Source of the DNA: Nitrospira sp. KM1 | GTDB taxonomy: Bacteria > Nitrospirota > Nitrospiria > Nitrospirales > Nitrospiraceae | Reading direction: 5' to 3' | NCBI RefSeq assembly: GCF_011405515.1 | Contig: NZ_AP022671.1 | Location: 2,170,001 to 2,234,000, forward strand | Length of the DNA: 64,000 bases | In this document: positions 28,344 through 37,216 of the stretch, piece by piece | How positions within the stretch are numbered: position 1 is the stretch's first letter | How the letters are laid out: the number at the start of each line of letters is the position of its first letter | Notes under the pieces: model-generated | What the model was told of the DNA's origin: nothing | Database searches by the model: none | Seen by the model: only the letters and a program-made list of their open reading frames with translations | Made by a program: the position numbers and the translations under genes

Positions 28344-29056
28344 ACTCAATAAACTCCTGCCCACATACTCGAATGGTGTCCCAAGTTTTCTACGGACTCG
28401 TCCGAGAAGGCGTTCGGATAGAAACCTATTCACACGCCTTCTTTCATCATACACGGGAGACTCGCGTTTATGTCGAAGTGGATGAATCGTCGGTGCCGCT
28501 GTCGAGGGAAGTCGAATACTGGTGTGTAGCCACGGCCAGGATGTAGGGACACTCGCGGACTTGTCAGTGTCAGGGGCAAAAATTATTGGACAGGTCCGCT
28601 ATCAGCCGTGGATACGCCGACGTGAGCTTTGGCGGGATGACGACGGACGTGAAAGCACGTCTTAGCCAGATCGTGCTGCATGACGCCACCCCAGCAGCAG
28701 CCTCATCATAAACCCATGGAATCCTGAGAAGCTGCTGGACCACCGGATTTTTAGCTTGGGTCCCCAAAGCTTCATACCCTTTAATAATCAGGTAGATAGT
28801 GAATCGTGCTGATACATATGCATTCAGGTAGCCGGGGTCCTGATGATGTTTCGTAGGTGGGCCCCTCCATCAATCTTCAACGGGAACTCGAATTCTGCAC
28901 ACGTGGAATGCACGTCAGGCTGCGTCGTAGAAACCACAACACACTCAATCGGGTATAGCGAATCATCGGAGGTTTTGATGGCGGTTGGCGCATTCCATTC
29001 ACTCCGCTTGTTTGCAGGTACATACACTCGCGACTGTCTCTAGCGTCGCCACTCCA
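28344..29056. other. Gene-poor stretch upstream of the ars operon
   Basis: About 700 bp with no gene I can support. A minus-strand frame from about 28873 to 28570 is open and reads protein-like in parts (YVSARFTIYLIIKGYEALG), but has no start codon with a ribosome site and no family I recognise. It may be another decayed gene. Confidence 0.35.
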
Positions 29057-29086
29057 TTGACATATCAATTTTTGTTTATATATACT
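29057..29086 (+). promoter_or_regulatory. arsR promoter with overlapping ArsR-type operator
   Basis: TTGACA at 29057-29062 and TATACT at 29081-29086 are 18 bases apart, a good sigma-70 promoter. Between them CATATCAA (29061-29068) repeats, inverted, the half-site of the second operator at 29432-29455. This supports autoregulation by the ArsR repressor. Confidence 0.6.
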
Positions 29087-29092
29087 CATTTC

Positions 29093-29416
29093 ATGAGTCC
29101 CACGTTAGCTACCCGGATAGAAGAAGCTTCCCGGTTATTTCATGCTCTCTCGGAGCCCACCCGTCTGCGCATCATGGAACAGCTCAAGGACGGCGAGAAA
29201 TGCGTCTGCGAGCTGACAGAGGCTTTCAATACAGGTCAATCTCGACTGTCCTTCCATTTAAGAGTTCTTAAAGACGCGGGCCTGATCAATGACCGACCAG
29301 AGGGACGATGGATGTATTACTCCCTGAACGTGGAAGTGATGAAGCAGTTGGCTTCAGTCGTGAAGGATTTCGAGGAATCAAAATCCTCTCGCCGCCCCTG
29401 CGCGCCGTGCCGGTAA
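29093..29416 (+). CDS. arsR: ArsR-family metalloid-responsive repressor
   Basis: 107 residues from the ATG at 29093. Winged HTH of the ArsR/SmtB family: ASRLFHALSEPTRLRIMEQL, then EKCVCELTEAFNTGQSRLSF with the CVC pair that binds As(III) in the recognition-helix region, and LRVLKDAGLINDRPEGRWMY. The tail has a further CAPC. It represses the operon until arsenite or antimonite binds. A promoter with an operator-like half-site is placed directly upstream. It leads acr3, arsC and arsI. Confidence 0.93.
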   Translation: MSPTLATRIEEASRLFHALSEPTRLRIMEQLKDGEKCVCELTEAFNTGQSRLSFHLRVLKDAGLINDRPEGRWMYYSLNVEVMKQLASVVKDFEESKSSRRPCAPCR

Positions 29417-29431
29417 TTTTTTTGTCCTCGT

Positions 29432-29455
29432 TACATCAACAAAAGTTGATATGTA
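29432..29455. promoter_or_regulatory. Second ArsR-type operator between arsR and acr3
   Basis: TACATCAAC (29432-29440) and GTTGATATGTA (29445-29455) form an imperfect inverted repeat around AAAA. GATATG is the reverse complement of CATATC in the arsR promoter. It ends five bases before the acr3 start and may give the efflux gene its own control. Confidence 0.5.
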
Positions 29456-29459
29456 GAGC

Positions 29460-30560
29460 ATGTCCATGGAAGCTGTTTTGCCCACCACTTCAATAAAGGA
29501 TGAAGTAAAGCGGCTCAATCGCTTTGAACGCTACCTGACGCTCTGGGTCGGCCTCTGCATGATCGCAGGAGTGGGGTTAGGCAAATGGGCTCCGAGCATT
29601 GCGCAAACCCTGCGGAGCTTTGAGTTCGGAAGAGATAGTCACATCAATATCCCGATTGCCGCGCTCATCTGGCTCATGATCATTCCCATGATGATGCGGG
29701 TGGACTTAGCCGCTGTCCGGGATGTGGGGAGAAACCCAAAGGGGCTAGTGATCACCCTGTTGATCAATTGGGTGGTGAAGCCCCTTTCAATGGCGCTTCT
29801 CGGGTGGGTGTTCTTTCGGCATGTGTTTTCAGCATGGATGTCTCCCGCCGAGACGGATCAATACATCGCGGGAACGATCATTCTGGCGGCTGCCCCCTGT
29901 ACCGCTATGGTATTTGTCTGGAGTTACCTCACCGACGGTGACCCCGCCTATACGCTCGTGCAAGTGTCCATCAACGACCTGATTATGCTCGTGCTCTTCG
30001 CTCCAATTGTTGGACTGGCCGTTGCCGGCACATCCTTGCTCACCGTGCCGTTTAAGGTTTTGCTGTATTCCGTCATGCTGTTCATCCTAATTCCACTGGT
30101 GGCTGGCTCACTGATCCGCACCTGGTCTATCCATGCATACGGAACCGCCTGGTTTCACAATGTGCTCCTGCCTATTTTCCAGCCGATGACGATTCTCGCC
30201 CTACTTGCCACACTGGTGCTTATCTTTGCGTTTCAGGCTGACAACATCACCGGCAAATTTCTGCATGTCATCCTTATAGCCGTACCCGTTCTCGTACAGG
30301 TCTATTTCAACTCTTCGTTGGCCTACGGACTCATGAAGTTCTTTGAAGTGCCCTACGCAGTGGCCGCACCCGGTGCCCTCATTGGGGCCAGCAATTTCTT
30401 CGAACTGGCGGTAGCCACGGCTATCGCCCTCTTTGGGCCAGAGTCCGGGGCCGCCTTGGCGACCGTCGTTGGGGTTTTGGTGGAGGTGCCAGTCATGCTG
30501 TCTGTGTGCGCGGTCTGTAATCGGACCAAGCATTGGTTTGAAGGCGAGGGGGCACGATGA
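29460..30560 (+). CDS. acr3: ACR3-family arsenite efflux transporter
   Basis: 366 residues with about ten membrane helices. ACR3 features are visible: PIAALIWLMIIPMMMRVDLA, NWVVKPLSMALLGWVFF and the conserved cysteine in AAPCTAMVFVWSYL, plus GASNFFELAVATAIALFG near the end. It exports arsenite using the proton motive force. The start is ATG 29460, or ATG 29466 in the same frame. Its stop overlaps the arsC start by four bases. Confidence 0.95.
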   Translation: MSMEAVLPTTSIKDEVKRLNRFERYLTLWVGLCMIAGVGLGKWAPSIAQTLRSFEFGRDSHINIPIAALIWLMIIPMMMRVDLAAVRDVGRNPKGLVITLLINWVVKPLSMALLGWVFFRHVFSAWMSPAETDQYIAGTIILAAAPCTAMVFVWSYLTDGDPAYTLVQVSINDLIMLVLFAPIVGLAVAGTSLLTVPFKVLLYSVMLFILIPLVAGSLIRTWSIHAYGTAWFHNVLLPIFQPMTILALLATLVLIFAFQADNITGKFLHVILIAVPVLVQVYFNSSLAYGLMKFFEVPYAVAAPGALIGASNFFELAVATAIALFGPESGAALATVVGVLVEVPVMLSVCAVCNRTKHWFEGEGAR

Positions 30561-30976
30561 AAAAGAGAGTGCTCTTTCTCTGTACCGGGAATTCCTGCCG
30601 AAGCCAAATGGCAGAAGGATGGCTTCGTCATCTTGGAGGCGGACAATTCGATGTGGTGAGTGCCGGCACACATCCCGTGGGGCTGAATCCCTGTGCCGTT
30701 CGCGTCATGCAGGAAGCCCACGTTGACATTTCACACCATGCTTCAGAACGAGTTGAGCCGTATCTTACACAGCATTTCGATTACGTGATCACCGTGTGCG
30801 ACCGTGCGCATGAAGAATGCCCAATCTTCCCGGGAGTCTCTTCCATGTTCCATTGGAACTTTGATGATCCGGCCAAGGCAAACGGCTCATACGAACAACG
30901 GCTCATCGTCTTTCGCAGGATACGGGATGAAATTCAAAACCGGATTCGCGGTTTTATCGCAGACACGGCCGGTTAG
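30557..30976 (+). CDS. arsC: Arsenate reductase, LMW-phosphatase type
   Basis: 139 residues. The P-loop C-x5-R is FLCTGNSCRSQMAEG, and the second redox pair is seen in ITVCDRAHEECPIFPG. This is the thioredoxin-coupled class (as in Staphylococcus pI258 and Bacillus), with the usual DDPA motif (FHWNFDDPAKANG). It reduces arsenate to arsenite for export by ACR3. It is translationally coupled to acr3 (ATGA overlap). Confidence 0.95.
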   Translation: MKKRVLFLCTGNSCRSQMAEGWLRHLGGGQFDVVSAGTHPVGLNPCAVRVMQEAHVDISHHASERVEPYLTQHFDYVITVCDRAHEECPIFPGVSSMFHWNFDDPAKANGSYEQRLIVFRRIRDEIQNRIRGFIADTAG

Positions 30977-31022
30977 CGCAGGTGCTCGATTCGTGAACGT
31001 ATTGCCAAGAGGAGGGCATGTC

Positions 31023-31493
31023 ATGAAACGCTTTCACATCCATATCGGGGTAGACAAGCTGGATGAAGCCATACGCTTTTATAGCTCGCTCTTCGGGGCC
31101 CAGCCGGTGAAGAGCAAACCTGATTATGCCAAGTGGTTGCTGGATGATCCCAGCGTGAACTTTGCGATATCCACGCGGGTGAAAAAGAACGGAGTGGATC
31201 ACCTTGGTATTCAGGCCGAAGAGGAGCACGAACTGTCAGAACTCCGTAACCGGCTCACGGCTACTGGCAGAACAGTCGAGGAAGAAGGCGAGACGGTCTG
31301 CTGTTATGCCCGTTCAGACAAATCTTGGATCCAAGATCCTGCTGGTATCCCTTGGGAAGCCTACCGCACCATGGAAGACGCCCAACTATTTGCCGGTACG
31401 GTGGGGGTCGAAAGCGCATGCTGTACGCCTGAAACAAAGAGAACGCCTGATTGCTGTATTCCGTCAGAAAAGACTCTGGGCTGTTGTGGCTAA
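31023..31493 (+). CDS. arsI: ArsI/CadI-family glyoxalase-fold protein
   Basis: 156 residues from the ATG at 31023, behind GAGGAGG. One vicinal-oxygen-chelate fold: MKRFHIHIGVDKLDEAIRFY, DHLGIQAEEEHEL and WIQDPAGIPWEAY supply the metal ligands His, His and Glu. The vicinal cysteines in ETVCCYARSDK are those that bind trivalent organoarsenicals in ArsI C-As lyases. A Cys-rich tail (ESACCTPE, DCCIPSE, GCCG) adds three more pairs. The likely role is demethylation of methylarsenite, completing the ars operon. A CadI label (cadmium-induced) is the alternative. Confidence 0.88.
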   Translation: MKRFHIHIGVDKLDEAIRFYSSLFGAQPVKSKPDYAKWLLDDPSVNFAISTRVKKNGVDHLGIQAEEEHELSELRNRLTATGRTVEEEGETVCCYARSDKSWIQDPAGIPWEAYRTMEDAQLFAGTVGVESACCTPETKRTPDCCIPSEKTLGCCG

Positions 31494-31648
31494 CACTGTG
31501 TGGGAACAGTCTAAACTTACGCCGATCGCCTCACCATTTATGCCAATGGGAGGCTCAACGACCTTGTGCGGCCATTAAATCTGGGTGGGTGTCTATGATT
31601 GGCGAGCGTGTTGGTCCCATCGCCGCGGCAGGAGTTCCATTGGGGATT

Positions 31649-31981
31649 TCAGGAAGGAAGATCGCCGGAGCAGGGGAGGGCCGCCAGGGCGGCCCTCATT
31701 GACGCATCTCGCTCGACAATGAGGAGGCGCGAGGCCCCGGCTTCCTGAACATTTTGGAGAGCCCTGCGAATTCGAGACAAGGATGTCCATGACGGGGGTC
31801 TCTTGTGATTGCGCATCCAGGAATCGAGAAAGAGCCGCAATGTATCACCGGTCGTCTGAATAGAGACAAATTCGAGTTCAGTCAGAGGTCTGGTGTTCTC
31901 AACATGGGCTTCTAGCGGCCTACATGCCTTCATGAAATCAGCAATGAGGTGTTTCTGCTCAAGATTATCAGGGGGAGGCAT
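31649..31981 (-). CDS. Small protein of an unnamed three-member family (copy A)
   Basis: 110 residues. It shares F-[ML]-x2-[CS]-x2-L-E-x8-L-T with two other short proteins of the window: here DFMKACRPLEAHVENTRPLT, then TTGDTLRLFLDSW. The remaining 50 residues (ALQNVQEAGASRLLIVERD) are peculiar to this copy. No domain, signal peptide or membrane helix is seen. The start ATG at 31981 has only a weak ribosome site. Function unknown. Confidence 0.6.
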   Translation of the reverse strand: MPPPDNLEQKHLIADFMKACRPLEAHVENTRPLTELEFVSIQTTGDTLRLFLDSWMRNHKRPPSWTSLSRIRRALQNVQEAGASRLLIVERDASMRAALAALPCSGDLPS

Positions 31982-32298
31982 GTCCGTAGTGTAAGACAGG
32001 TTCGAACGCTACGAAATGACAATCAACGACCGTCGGTCCGAGCCCTTTGGTGGTTTATGTTTTGGTCGTCACCCAGACGCCCGGATCCTGGGGTTTCTTT
32101 TTTGGAGGGTGCCCCTTTTGGATTCAAGTTGTCCAAATCAGAGCGGAGAGTTGTATGGATCTCGCATGCCCGGCTGCAGTGGTGGAAATCGCCTCCCACT
32201 TCGAGCCGACCGGCGACAAACACAGGGAGGTCTTCACGCGCGGGCATCCTTGTAAAGGAGCCTCGGGTCTGCCCCGGCCAGGTGATCAAGCTCGTCCG
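31982..32298. other. Gap between two minus-strand genes
   Basis: About 317 bp. Open frames exist on both strands but none has a start, family or composition I can support. Confidence 0.35.
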
Positions 32299-32664
32299 TT
32301 ACCCGCCCGATTTAAGCATCTCCGTCTTCAATTTGGCCTTGATCGATTCCACATAGCTTTTCGATACATCCACCTTGCCCATGATTTCCATCACGGATCG
32401 GCCGTCCTTGAGCATGGTCGCAATAGCGCGGTCTTTGGCCACCGATGATTGCGAAAACTCCTTCTTCCGAGCCCGTCTCTCTCGTAGCCCGAGGGCGGCG
32501 TATAAATCACACTCCTGATTAACATAGCGCCTCAGTCCTTCTGCCACGAATCGTATATGATTCGCAGCATGTGGGAGCGCCAAGAGGTAGTAGGACGTCG
32601 CCTGAAGCCATTGCTTCGCTTGGCGGGTCGATGAGGGCGGTCGGATGCGGGCTGTCTTAATCAT
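32299..32664 (-). CDS. Uncharacterised protein with possible C-terminal HTH
   Basis: 121 residues from an ATG with AGGAGA six bases upstream. The N-terminal half is basic then helical (TSYYLLALPHAANHIRFVAE). The C-terminal part, DRAIATMLKDGRSVMEIMGK then VSKSYVESIKAKLK, has the spacing of a helix-turn-helix as in LuxR/resolvase-type DNA-binding ends. I do not recognise the whole. It lies between copies A and B of the small family above, on the same strand as A. Confidence 0.6.
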   Translation of the reverse strand: MIKTARIRPPSSTRQAKQWLQATSYYLLALPHAANHIRFVAEGLRRYVNQECDLYAALGLRERRARKKEFSQSSVAKDRAIATMLKDGRSVMEIMGKVDVSKSYVESIKAKLKTEMLKSGG

Positions 32665-32858
32665 AGTCTCTCCTGCCGTTTCTGGGTCTCACAGGCTTAA
32701 CCGTGAGAATCCCGATTGAAAAGCGATTCATTAAAAATATGAAGATCCCGTCAACAACCGCTCACTGAATTGCAATCCCCCTTCCTAACTACCCCAGAAT
32801 ACGTATCTTCCATTTCTGACCCGCTCCGTTATACAGTTCGCCCCTCCACGGAGCACTC

Positions 32859-33041
32859 ATGGGACGAACGGATGATCCGCAGCAGATGGTGGCCGACTTC
32901 CTGACCGCAAGTCAGCCACTAGAAAGGTACCTGGGCTGCGGAGGCAAATTGACCGACCCTCAACAAGCCGCCCTCTCTCTCTCAACGTGGTCCATTATCC
33001 GACTCATGGCTGGAGGAAAACGCGGTCGAACGAAGAACTGA
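32859..33041 (+). CDS. Small protein of an unnamed three-member family (copy B)
   Basis: 60 residues, GGAG six bases before the ATG. It carries DFLTASQPLERYLGCGGKLT, the same motif and spacing as copies A and C, then STWSIIRLMAGGKRGRTKN. No known domain. The basic end could touch nucleic acid or membrane, but this is a guess. Confidence 0.55.
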   Translation: MGRTDDPQQMVADFLTASQPLERYLGCGGKLTDPQQAALSLSTWSIIRLMAGGKRGRTKN

Positions 33042-33133
33042 TGAGCGCCATCGCACACCTGTTTTATTGATGCATCAGAGCCGTTTGCTTGCTTGCCATC
33101 TGCCCCGCGCATCCATTACAAGCGTGATGACTG

Positions 33134-33572
33134 TTGTGTTCTTGTTCTTTGTCATCAAAGAAAAAGAAGCGCTGCCATGGGGTAAACATTCTCTATATCG
33201 ATGGACACTCGGAAGATCATCGGTTCTTTGTCGACCGCCTCAAGCAAGCCTTTCCTGACTACCGCATTCTGGAAGCCTTTACCGGAGAAATAGGACGTGA
33301 GTTTTTACAACGCGAGCGCATCGATTGTCTCGTGCTCGAATTGGACCTTCCCGACATGTCGGGTTTTGAATTTCTGACCAATAGCGTGCAGCGCATAGGT
33401 TCTCCTTACACACCGGTCGTTGTGCTCACCCGCACCCATCATTGATATCTGGGATCTTGCGAAGAGACATGGCGCTTATGCCTGCCTCTCGAAGTCACAT
33501 ACAACAGCAGACTTGCTCGCCCTTCACGTTCTGCGAGGTCTGGCACAAATCACACCGCCGCAGCGAGATTGA
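33134..33572 (+). pseudogene. Response-regulator receiver domain, frameshifted
   Basis: NILYIDGHSEDHRFFVDRLK and LVLELDLPDMSGFEFL are the start and phospho-acceptor region of a CheY-like receiver, and PVVVLTRTHH ends in TGA at 33443. Dropping one T there lets the frame go on with DIWDLAKRHGAYACLSKSHT, which supplies the conserved Lys, to a stop at 33572. No start codon with a ribosome site fits the N-terminus either. Conclusion: a stand-alone receiver gene that has decayed. A sequencing error is possible. Confidence 0.6.
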
Positions 33573-33956
33573 CATCGCCGATGGTTCCCTCTTGAGCATG
33601 CGCGGTAATGTTTGTTACCGCCTCGGGTCGATCGCATAGGGCTATTGAGCCGAAGGTCTCTGCGGCCCATTGCCGCGATAGTCGGGATTTGTTTCGTTTT
33701 CGTGGCAGACCTTCTTAAGTCAAAAGGCCCCTTACTCTGCATCCTCATCTCGTTCATTGAACTTGAGAGGGGCGGGACATAATGTGTCCGGATAGGACGA
33801 AGTGTCCGCTCATCAAGTGATCCATGATCTGATCCGATCACCTATTTGGGCACATTCCAAATGCTTCAACAAACCCGCAACAGACGCTACAACGCGTTGC
33901 GTGGATTTTGCAATAAACTCATCCATCAAACAACGCTACCCCATGGTAAGAGAGGG
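33573..33956. other. Gap without a supported gene
   Basis: About 384 bp. Near 33775-33820 the words GTGTCCG and AGTGTCCGC recur, which may be the remains of a mobile-element end, but no transposase sequence is recognisable. Confidence 0.3.
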
Positions 33957-34169
33957 ATGAAAATGAATAGAGCTGATCTCATCATTATGAACTTCCTCGA
34001 GGTCAGTAACGATTTAGAGAATTACATTTACAGTCAGTCTCCGCTGACACCGCCTCAACGGAAGATCATCCGAGCCACGAGAGCCACGACCATAGGCCTG
34101 CAGGCCTTCAGAACATCCGGAATTGGCGGCGGTCGAAGCGTGTCTTTGCACAAGCAGGTCGAGACATGA
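33957..34169 (+). CDS. Small protein of an unnamed three-member family (copy C)
   Basis: 70 residues; ATG 33957, or 33963 which has AGAGGG at a better distance. It shows NFLEVSNDLENYIYSQSPLT, matching copies A and B in motif and exact spacing, then a basic, Gly-rich end. It overlaps the next gene by four bases (ATGA), so the two are translated together. Function unknown. Confidence 0.6.
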   Translation: MKMNRADLIIMNFLEVSNDLENYIYSQSPLTPPQRKIIRATRATTIGLQAFRTSGIGGGRSVSLHKQVET

Positions 34170-34402
34170 GCAAAACTGCCGAATACAGCGGTTATACGAT
34201 CGAGTCATCCCCCACGCCGGTGATGGGTTCCCGTGCCTGGAAGATTCGAATATTTATCTCGTGGGAGAGCAAGGGCGCTGGAATTACCCGTGGGTTCTCT
34301 CCCGCCGGCATGATGGGGACAGAGCAGGAGGCGGATTGTGAGGGCATCACGTTCGGGAAGGAAATCATCAACGGCAAGGTTGAGGATTTGGCGCTCGAGT
34401 AG
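34166..34402 (+). CDS. Small uncharacterised protein, possibly CV_2116-like
   Basis: 78 residues. YSGYTIESSPTPVMGSRAWK and TEQEADCEGITFGKEIINGK resemble a widespread short family with a T-x-E-E-A-x-x-x-G-I-x-F-G-K-x-I-I-D-G-K ending, to which the CV_2116 domain belongs. A compact beta-rich fold is likely. It is coupled to copy C of the small family by an ATGA overlap, the only hint to its job. Confidence 0.6.
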   Translation: MSKTAEYSGYTIESSPTPVMGSRAWKIRIFISWESKGAGITRGFSPAGMMGTEQEADCEGITFGKEIINGKVEDLALE

Positions 34403-34421
34403 GAGTCACCCCGTTCAGATT

Positions 34422-34877
34422 TTATTGAGTCCCGAACGTGCGCACATAGCGCAGGATTTGCCAGGCTTCCTCTTCCGTCAAGATTGCCGGCACAAACGAC
34501 GCCATCGCCGTGCCCGGACTTCCATTTTTCAATATCCACAGCAATTCGCCATCCGTTCGGGCTGCCTGCCAGGCTGGATCAGTAAAATTCCTCGGCAAAG
34601 GTCCTTTGAGTGAGTCCGGCTCAATGCCTTGGACCAACCCCGTTCCGTCCGCGCCATGGCAAACGCGACAAAATGCCTTTCCCTCAAATAGCGTTTTCCC
34701 CTTCGCAATGATGTCCGGGGAGGCGGGCAACGGATTCGCCATCTGTCGCACCGCCTCGATTTGTCCTGCCGGGACCCGCGGCCGTAGGATTTCCGCATCG
34801 GCCCCCCAGCTCATCACGGAATACCAGATACCTGCTACGCAGATAGAGGAGATGATCCATCGCATCCCTGCACTCAT
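34422..34877 (-). CDS. Periplasmic c-type cytochrome, one haem
   Basis: 151 residues from the ATG at 34877, behind AAGGAAT. An N-terminal signal/anchor (IISSICVAGIWYSVMSWGADA) is followed by one class I cytochrome c domain: haem-binding CRVCHGADGTG (CxxCH near 77-81) and a distal Met, probably in GTAMASFVP. The C-terminal helix TEEEAWQILRYVRTFG is typical. It carries electrons in the periplasm; the partner is unknown. It shares a strand with the DUF1264 gene upstream, 54 bp away. Confidence 0.88.
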   Translation of the reverse strand: MSAGMRWIISSICVAGIWYSVMSWGADAEILRPRVPAGQIEAVRQMANPLPASPDIIAKGKTLFEGKAFCRVCHGADGTGLVQGIEPDSLKGPLPRNFTDPAWQAARTDGELLWILKNGSPGTAMASFVPAILTEEEAWQILRYVRTFGTQ

Positions 34878-34931
34878 ATTCCTTGCATACCCTCGCTTCC
34901 ACACGGGGCAACGAGCATGACACTCGAGGCA

Positions 34932-35465
34932 TTACTCGGTACGAGGCTTGTGGCCGACCGCCTGCGGATGGCCAACCTCGCCATTGGGAGCTTTGGCTCC
35001 GCTCGGCCAGAGGTGAAATATGATTCCGTCCGTCTTGGCTGCCGCGGCAGCGATTTCCTTGGCTTGAGCTTCCGGCATATCCAGGACTTGCACCCGCCCG
35101 GTTGCGATTTCCGCTTCGTGGTCGTGGTAGTACTTGTTCCATGTATCCAGCGGGACCTGAGAGCGTGAAATAGACTTAGAAACAAAGTATTCGATATCCG
35201 TCAGCAATGCATTGGGATCCGTGGACTCGAATAACAGGCATTGAATGACATCCTGAGAAATCGGCTTGCAATAGTGATGGTATGGACCGTGAACCGTACC
35301 GTCTTCGAACTTATGTGGTGCGACGACATGGACGGTATACCCTTGTGCGGGGCCCGGCTTTTCCATTGCTTTGGTTGATGCCCCCCCGGCGCCGTGCATA
35401 TCTGCACATCCCACCGATGCGATAAGTCCTATAGCCCCGATGATTCCGACCGCCCCTGTTTGCAT
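34932..35465 (-). CDS. DUF1264 (OBAP-like) protein, secreted
   Basis: 177 residues from the ATG at 35465, behind AGGAGG. A signal peptide (GIIGAIGLIASVGCADMHG) has a Cys that might be lipidated, although the lipobox is poor. The rest matches DUF1264/oil-body-associated-like proteins: VHVVAPHKFEDGTVHGPYHH, YCKPISQDVIQCLLFES and WNKYYHDHEAEIATGRVQVL. The many His residues may bind metal. It is probably co-transcribed with the cytochrome c gene. Confidence 0.82.
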   Translation of the reverse strand: MQTGAVGIIGAIGLIASVGCADMHGAGGASTKAMEKPGPAQGYTVHVVAPHKFEDGTVHGPYHHYCKPISQDVIQCLLFESTDPNALLTDIEYFVSKSISRSQVPLDTWNKYYHDHEAEIATGRVQVLDMPEAQAKEIAAAAAKTDGIIFHLWPSGAKAPNGEVGHPQAVGHKPRTE

Positions 35466-35918
35466 AATAACCTCCTGTGAGAAATGAAAGGAAACGAACC
35501 CGTCAACTATTCTCATTCGTACGATACTATTGAGGTGCAAAAGGATTCGTCGGATTCTATGGATTCTTCCTCGGTCGAAGAAAGACTCTCGCCATGTTCT
35601 ATGGCTATCCGCAATTTAGCATGACTCCATCATGTGGCTTGGACAAGTCATGGTCTTCCTGCCCCTTAGTTGGCGAACGTGAGACTGTATCGCATAAACC
35701 TGCGCGGCGATGCGCCGGGATCCTGTGGCACAGTCAGCCTCTGGAAAACCTCTCAGTCCCGATGCTTTCAGTACACTCTGATGGCCTAAACGGCTGCTAT
35801 TCCTCTTGGTATGAGAGCACATAAATCACTATAAATTACTGATTATACTACGTTTTTGGCCATACAGCTCGGGCAGATTTTATGGTAGGTTATTCATGGT
35901 CTGGAGAGTACACCAGTC
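35466..35918. other. Intergenic region between divergent genes
   Basis: About 453 bp holding the DUF1264 ribosome site and, near 35820-35860, an AT-rich stretch likely to contain promoters. I see no gene in it. Confidence 0.4.
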
Positions 35919-36164
35919 ATGCGCATACCGTCACGAGTTGTCTTCCCATTCGGTTACCGGATCTCCGTACGGCAACTGTCCGAATCGGATATGGACCGCC
36001 GTGATCCGAACGCCGATGGCATATGGGATGATGAAACAAAGACCATTTATCTTCGGAAACGGTTGCCGGTGACCAGGCGGCGATACATCCTCGCTCACGA
36101 GTTGGGCCATGCCTGGCTGGACTGGCAACACCGCCACCTCGATAATGGCAAAGCCAAGACCTAG
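35919..36164 (+). CDS. Short ImmA/IrrE-like zinc peptidase domain protein
   Basis: 81 residues. RRYILAHELGHAWLDWQHRH has the HExxH zinc motif and flanks of the ImmA/IrrE family, and DGIWDDETKTIYLRKRLP is the strand before it. Full-length ImmA/IrrE proteins are at least 130 residues and have a third ligand downstream of HExxH. Here the chain stops 20 residues after the motif, so it is a mini-domain or a truncated gene. GGAG lies 12 bases before the ATG. No XRE partner is adjacent. Confidence 0.65.
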   Translation: MRIPSRVVFPFGYRISVRQLSESDMDRRDPNADGIWDDETKTIYLRKRLPVTRRRYILAHELGHAWLDWQHRHLDNGKAKT

Positions 36165-36178
36165 CTATCTCAGCGAGT

Positions 36179-36655
36179 CTATCGTTTGTGCGCCTTGCCC
36201 AATTTGACAATAATATCCCACTCCGACGGTGTAACAGGTTGGACGGACAGTCGGGAACCTTTCTTCAGGAGCGTCATTCCTTTTAGTCTGGGCTCCTTTC
36301 GAAGCCGGTCCAGTGAAACTGCCTGGTCGAATTTTTCCAGAAACCGAATATCCACCATGTCCCATCGCGGTGCGTCTGGCAAGCTGTCAGGATCGTAATG
36401 ATCTCCCGATTTATCGAATTGGGTGTCGTCGGGATAGGCCGTACGGGAAACCTCAGCGATCCCGACGACGGCCGGTGGGTCGGCATTGCTATGATAAAAG
36501 AACACGCGGTCTCCAACCGCCATGGCCCGCATAAAGTTTCTCGCCTGATAGTTCCGGACGCCATCCCAACTGGTCATCCGACGCGGCGAGGCCGCGAGAT
36601 CGTCAATAGAGAAGGTCTCAGGTTCTGACTTCACCAGCCAGCAGCGATGGGACAT
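36179..36655 (-). CDS. EVE-domain protein
   Basis: 158 residues from the ATG at 36655 (AAAGG upstream). One EVE domain fills the protein: MSHRCWLVKSEPETFSIDDL, TSWDGVRNYQARNFMRAMAV, GDRVFFYHSNADPPAVVGIA and the closing LSVQPVTPSEWDIIVKLG. The fold is related to YTH/PUA and binds modified bases in DNA or RNA. Stand-alone EVE proteins are common housekeeping-like genes. Not linked to a restriction gene here. Confidence 0.93.
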   Translation of the reverse strand: MSHRCWLVKSEPETFSIDDLAASPRRMTSWDGVRNYQARNFMRAMAVGDRVFFYHSNADPPAVVGIAEVSRTAYPDDTQFDKSGDHYDPDSLPDAPRWDMVDIRFLEKFDQAVSLDRLRKEPRLKGMTLLKKGSRLSVQPVTPSEWDIIVKLGKAHKR

Positions 36656-36717
36656 CGGCTTTACCTTTCTGAAAAACGTGAATGGTACGAGGGTCGCCCT
36701 GCTTCCCAACGGGAGGC

Positions 36718-37104
36718 CTAGGCGGGGGGCTCATCCGGCTCCCACTCTCCCGATTCGATGTATTTGATGAGCGCTTTGTACGTCATTTCCCGCACAGTGG
36801 CTTTCGACGCCGCTTGCCCCAGGCTATTTCGATCCAACCAGACTTGCTCGGTCACATGCCGATTCGCCTCGTTGCAGAGACTCCACATTTCATGAAGAAA
36901 ATTCTCCGGGAGACCGACTTGAAGACCCTCGGATTCGATCCGGTCGTCGAGAATGGCCAGGAGATCTGAAATAGCCTGGTCGGACCGATACGGCGCTGTA
37001 GAGAATCCGAATGTCTGCTGGGCTGAGGCCTCCTGTTTAGCCTGTTCAACCAAGTCCTGCATATATTCTTTCAACAGGCCGACGACATGTCCGGATAGAG
37101 GCAT
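36718..37104 (-). CDS. Uncharacterised helical protein
   Basis: 128 residues from the ATG at 37104 with AAGGAG eight bases upstream. Mostly helical and acidic (GLLKEYMQDLVEQAKQEASA, AISDLLAILDDRIESEG, MTYKALIKYIESGEWEPDEP). No signal peptide, membrane helix or family that I recognise. It is upstream of the EVE gene on the same strand, 62 bp apart, and divergent from the YkgJ gene. Confidence 0.7.
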   Translation of the reverse strand: MPLSGHVVGLLKEYMQDLVEQAKQEASAQQTFGFSTAPYRSDQAISDLLAILDDRIESEGLQVGLPENFLHEMWSLCNEANRHVTEQVWLDRNSLGQAASKATVREMTYKALIKYIESGEWEPDEPPA

Positions 37105-37216
37105 GCTCGGAACTCCTTGGCACGTCATTATGCGGTTCCTGACGGAAGAGCGCAACGATCGGCCAGAACAGTCGCTGCAATTGACCAATAAGTCGTCGGT
37201 TTTCTATCATGCGGCC

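Follow-up and report, generated by a model that had tools for sequence, protein, structure and literature searches.

Small predicted helical hairpins form an undescribed, dispersed protein family in Nitrospira with a possible link to receiver-type signaling

Three short open reading frames in a 64,000-nucleotide stretch of DNA from Nitrospira sp. KM1 (the whole stretch analyzed, hereafter the window), here called P1, P2 and P3, encode what sequence comparison indicates are real, divergent members of one undescribed protein family, with the membership of P3 being weak by sequence. We tentatively favor, at a probability of roughly 0.4, the reading that these predicted hairpins are small adaptors or regulators that dock on receiver- or CheB-type signaling proteins, a role that we infer from gene context and fold rather than demonstrate. 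The sequence-only reading of the window had already suggested regulators or adaptors, and context and fold make that suggestion plausible. Nitrospira are key nitrite oxidizers with much of their gene content unannotated, and a family defined by its fold makes a set of unexplained small open reading frames testable.

The recognition of the three open reading frames and of a shared motif held up on re-analysis. All three are present with the positions, strands and lengths given in Table 1, and each carries, inside the first 45 residues and with identical spacing, the sequence F-[ML]-x2-[CS]-x2-L-E-x8-L-T. P2 is preceded by GGAG and a five-base spacer ahead of its ATG. In all six frames of the window the motif occurs exactly three times, in P1, P2 and P3, and it is found zero times in 200 residue-shuffled versions of the window's stop-to-stop frames, a three-versus-zero count that is post hoc since the motif was defined after the three sequences had been seen. 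Independent tests of kinship come from BLAST paralogues of P1 and P2 and from leave-one-out profiles. BLAST identified a paralogue of P1 at KM1 position 2355688 (57%, E 6.1e-18) and one of P2 at 397669 (48%, E 3.3e-12), together with weaker ones elsewhere; for P3 it returned no relative besides P3 itself. A profile built without P1, P2 and P3 ranked precisely these three at the top of the 1559 window frames, with E-values of 3.8e-19, 4.6e-14 and 0.0044, respectively, and 0.34 for the next frame, a result that is partly circular in that several profile members were first found via P1, P2 or an all-three profile. By these scores P3 is the weakest member of the family.

Table 1. Open reading frames of the hairpin cluster and adjoining genes (window positions).
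Feature	Position	Strand	Description
P1 (110 aa)	31649..31981	-	hairpin core (predicted), residues 1-66, and C-terminal extension
121-aa ORF between P1 and P2	32299..32664	-	weak HTH-like C-terminus
P2 (60 aa)	32859..33041	+	putative hairpin with short basic tail
Broken pseudo-receiver gene	33149..33572	+	Response_reg E 5.8e-9 (first part); Glu at phospho-acceptor site
P3 (70 aa)	33957..34169	+	divergent hairpin (predicted)
CV_2116-domain small protein (78 aa)	34166..34402	+	NF046097, E 1.7e-22, above cut-off

Whole-genome profile searches, conducted with an alignment of nine rows (A2) and then with one of 22 rows (A3), extended the family well outside the window. Alignment A3 matched at E 0.01 or better in 18 of 175 genomes of the taxonomic family. 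Among its 41 listed places, 33 reach E 3.1e-9 or better and are spread over 16 of the 175 genomes (22 of them rows already in the alignment, the other 11 additional), and the remaining eight are weak (1.4e-5 to 0.01). In the class as a whole, A3 matches 20 of 269 genomes; the two added are G196, from another family of the same order, with a strong match at E 1.9e-16, and G189, with a weak one (E 0.0076). The KM1 genome, which is complete (4,509,223 bp) and contains the window at 2170001-2234000, has nine copies. Among the genomes searched, strong members are confined to Nitrospiraceae and G196 and, with no curated family fitting, the proposal of a small lineage-specific family is borne out. 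A further profile search of genome contigs with the small alignment A9 recovered seven loci, all titled Nitrospira; the same search with the small alignment A5 recovered none, in a search set possibly lacking its own and near genomes. Five loci from g9 genomes (L027-L031, E 0.005-0.01) were rejected as members; they resemble an unrelated frame.

Ratios of nonsynonymous to synonymous substitution (dN/dS, Nei-Gojobori) point to purifying selection on P1 and on most, not all, of the tested pairs of relatives. The ratio is 0.20 for P1 versus its closest KM1 paralogue, 0.23 for L020/L075, 0.23-0.30 in group B and 0.26-0.63 in group C; in group A, whose orthologues have very low dS (up to 0.16), the values scatter between 0.15 and 1.83 and give no clear sign of selection, and substitutions between P2 and its paralogue are saturated. 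Together with the leave-one-out E-values, the remote paralogues, the spread over Nitrospiraceae genomes and the zero count in shuffles, these ratios speak against the idea that the frames are spurious and share a chance motif. That idea draws on the shortness of the frames, the lack of a curated family and the lack of a BLAST relative of P3; we regard it as very improbable overall and, by the sequence comparisons above, as already contradicted for P1 and P2.

The sequence-only reading had taken the cluster for a local amplification, which is not supported. The tree needs three separate changes to account for the window copies and pairs each with a remote KM1 paralogue: P1 with KM1_2355679 (97/99), ~153 kb apart; P2 with KM1_397666 (98/95), ~1.8 Mb apart; and P3, on a long branch, with KM1_4388006 (85/81). 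Local tandem duplication is rejected by this topology, and because the window copies are placed with remote copies, the cluster is seen as a gathering of divergent paralogues of a dispersed family. On one side the cluster is bordered by a PF01758 transporter and a glyoxalase-fold protein (29460-31493), and on the other by a cytochrome c (34422-37135). Among six other genomes of the genus, the former, arsenic-gene side is matched in G001, G002, G003 and G006 and the cytochrome side in G001-G006, never together: a distance of 1.9 Mb separates the two in G001, and in G002, G003 and G006 they fall on separate contigs. Apart from one 70-base match in KM1, the interval between (31385-34432) yielded nothing but receiver-like or paralogous matches. 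Of the seven genomes compared, only KM1 therefore shows the junction at which the hairpin cluster is located. Within 31400-34600 there are two weak two-copy repeat families and no inverted repeats; no RNA family reached its gathering score in 29000-37000, and no tRNA was found in the window.

Structure prediction with AlphaFold yielded a two-helix hairpin both for the P1 core, modeled with an alignment (helices 5-28 and 35-59; pLDDT 80.4, pTM 0.45), and for P3, modeled as a single sequence without alignment (helices 5-25 and 32-54; pLDDT 75.9, pTM 0.57). In each model two helices of ~20-25 residues meet at the L-T turn, and the motif's L-T falls just ahead of the second helix. Most copies have a Trp after the second helix and then a basic tail. 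Past the conserved Trp position, the net charge of the tail is +5 in P1, +4 in P2 and +2 in P3; of the 21 copies examined, 19 have at least +2 and the remaining two have 0 and +1. The C-terminal extension of P1 is absent from its closest paralogue. No model in Pfam, NCBIfam or PHROG fits the family; the few single-member matches in the Pfam and NCBIfam scans (E 0.0055 to 0.078) all concern unrelated families. Foldseek returned nothing at E 0.001 from the PDB or viral libraries, the solved structures and curated families searched give the hairpin family no named function, and literature searches at the level of titles and abstract openings turned up no paper describing such hairpins. The family is thus undescribed in the libraries searched.

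Small helical hairpins with a part in two-component signaling are familiar from other bacteria. Sda, a Bacillus antikinase, is a stand-alone helical hairpin of under ~70 residues, like the predicted Nitrospira proteins, and Spo0E-like Asp-phosphate phosphatases are likewise small helical hairpins, acting on receivers. Pfam includes an Sda model, but 0 of 22 family members match either Sda or the Spo0E-like phosphatases in Pfam at E 0.1; no Sda chain is among the PDB profile matches up to E 10, nor is a Spo0E-like phosphatase among the PDB profile matches. Membership of either type was rejected, as profiles give it no support. Moreover, most of the adjoining receivers have no Asp at the phospho-acceptor site (Glu in 36 of 42 stretches examined), which would leave a phosphatase without a substrate. 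The best PDB profile match is to the N-terminal hairpin of the KANK2 ankyrin domain (PDB 6tmd, 5ybv and 4hbd; E 0.005 over 30 residues), with which the family has the stretch A-C-x2-LE-x-YL ... LT-x-x-E in common. KANK2 is a eukaryotic protein in which the hairpin is part of the ankyrin domain; the Foldseek search of the PDB gave no match better than E 4.5, and on structural re-comparison none of the three PDB chains reached a Z of 2. We read the resemblance as convergence or chance.

The receiver gene beside P2, which had been called broken from the sequence alone, is indeed so: it begins ~140 bp past P2, its 49% match contains one TGA, and its later part (33420-33572) lies in another frame. 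A related receiver follows the KM1 hairpin copy at 2588754, 118 bp downstream. Both belong to an expanded group of stand-alone pseudo-receivers, with at least 23 in KM1, collected from the window gene, L048:9053-10654, L091-L096 and L104-L134 (KM1 and relatives). In 42 distinct stretches the phospho-acceptor site is Glu in 36, Asp in five and Ala in one; the second residue of the acidic pair is Asp in four of the 41 stretches with a residue there and lost in 37, and Thr and Lys are mostly kept. One open reading frame (L048:9053-10156, KM1 2589052-2590155) combines a pseudo-receiver with a phytanoyl-CoA dioxygenase (PhyH) domain, and a 378-aa frame at L132:1382-2518 resembles it in start and length.

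The CV_2116-domain gene overlaps P3 by four bases, the stop of P3 and the ATG of the next gene being joined as ATGA. KM1 has nine matches to the CV_2116 group, and CV_2116-like genes also occur near hairpins at L048, L056, L057, L138 and L140. What had been described as a possible HTH protein between P1 and P2 retains an HTH_23 match at its C-terminus, with an E-value of only 0.024 that falls below the cut-off. Elsewhere, a family of ~106-aa proteins beginning MDSGK adjoins hairpin genes (L056:9266-9586, L057:8415-8735, L054:8948-9268 and L059:3204-3557); the one member scanned had no Pfam or NCBIfam match. The neighborhood gene tables were made with a simple codon-score gene caller and inspected by eye.

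In permutation tests on KM1, a pseudo-receiver is found no more than 1.5 kb from two of the six hairpin clusters (against a mean of 0.097 at random; p 0.004, uncorrected), and a CV_2116 gene no more than 6 kb from two of the six (p 0.007, uncorrected). Nine comparisons were made, with uncorrected p from 0.003 to 0.10 and with 23 scored candidates, from a group of at least that many, serving as the KM1 receivers; the idea of receiver proximity came from the window itself, and without the window cluster one of five clusters remains near a pseudo-receiver. At one locus (L050:9322-10410, G104:C61) a CheB methylesterase continues in frame into a C-terminal hairpin, a single case from a draft assembly that may be an artefact of assembly or of a lost stop. 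Three loci (L093, L121 and L124) have CheB-only genes next to pseudo-receivers. The gene context as a whole, comprising Glu-site pseudo-receivers, CV_2116-domain genes, the one CheB fusion and nearby integrases, is suggestive only.

As adaptors, the hairpins would use their apolar faces either to bind another copy or to dock on a receiver- or CheB-type partner, the partner often being the phosphorylation-independent (Glu-site) pseudo-receiver of a neighboring gene; such docking would alter whom the partner talks to, the hairpin itself being without catalysis. Against it, most hairpin copies, including four of the six KM1 clusters, have no adjacent pseudo-receiver. The basic tail, moreover, fits nucleic-acid binding just as well as an adaptor role, and a somewhat unlikely alternative is a small DNA- or RNA-associated protein in which the hairpin serves as the dimerization unit and the tail binds nucleic acid. 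Beyond the recurrent positive tail charge, this alternative can call on the L036 protein (L036:1501-1896), in which an extra tail of the form GGLKGG...LSxxRRxxIA is fused to the hairpin, on a similar tail in a separate gene of another genome (L136:3821-4087) with a hairpin gene ~1.5 kb off, and on the G196 copy, which directly precedes genes that, by their sequences, encode the ribosomal proteins L21/L27. Pfam and NCBIfam scans of the tail proteins gave no match. Against this alternative, the Pfam, PHROG and NCBIfam scans turned up no known nucleic-acid-binding family, both the length and the sequence of the tails differ widely between copies, and two copies have tails of charge 0 and +1.

Alternatively, the hairpins might be accessory cargo of mobile islands that serves the element, in maintenance, excision control or protection, and has no fixed host partner. 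Phage_integrase genes within ~2.2 kb of hairpins at four loci (L048, L055, L056 and L060), a Toprim/DUF3987 protein in the L048 region, an NrS-1-polymerase-like domain protein in the L051 region and the separation of the window flanks in KM1 relatives would all fit such cargo, but most inspected loci have no integrase (tables judged by eye, five candidate integrases scanned) and searches of plasmids, phages and viral contigs gave no relative. We consider this the more unlikely of these two alternatives, and favor the adaptor reading over both. A phage origin was rejected, there being no PHROG match and no relative among phages, plasmids or viral contigs, where the searches started from the single member L018 or from the small A5 and A9 alignments, so that distant members could be missed.

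If the link between the hairpins and the receivers holds, it would point to a style of signaling without phosphorylation in Nitrospira. In its widest form, which we offer as speculation and rate as improbable, Nitrospira would have a lineage-specific, phosphorylation-independent kit of dozens of Glu-site receivers, fast-evolving hairpins, CV_2116-domain proteins and CheB-only enzymes, held in small cassettes that are reshuffled partly by integrases, with the hairpins setting the wiring.

Two further sets of short open reading frames may be distant relatives of the main family: subfamily II (alignment A7; L062, L127 and L094) and subfamily III (A6; L063, L064, L051, L135 and L136). Aligned to A3 with hhalign they score 33.0 and 37.9, respectively; 100 column shuffles of each reached no more than 7.7 and 7.6, and the reversed controls gave 3.3 and 3.8. 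Members were chosen partly by eye or from weak matches, so that these scores overstate independence and amount to support, not proof, of a distant kinship. The distant hairpins L062 and L127 lie near pseudo-receivers. Lastly, a 113-aa protein at L051:8695-9036 resembles two hairpins in tandem and is possibly a natural model of a dimer.
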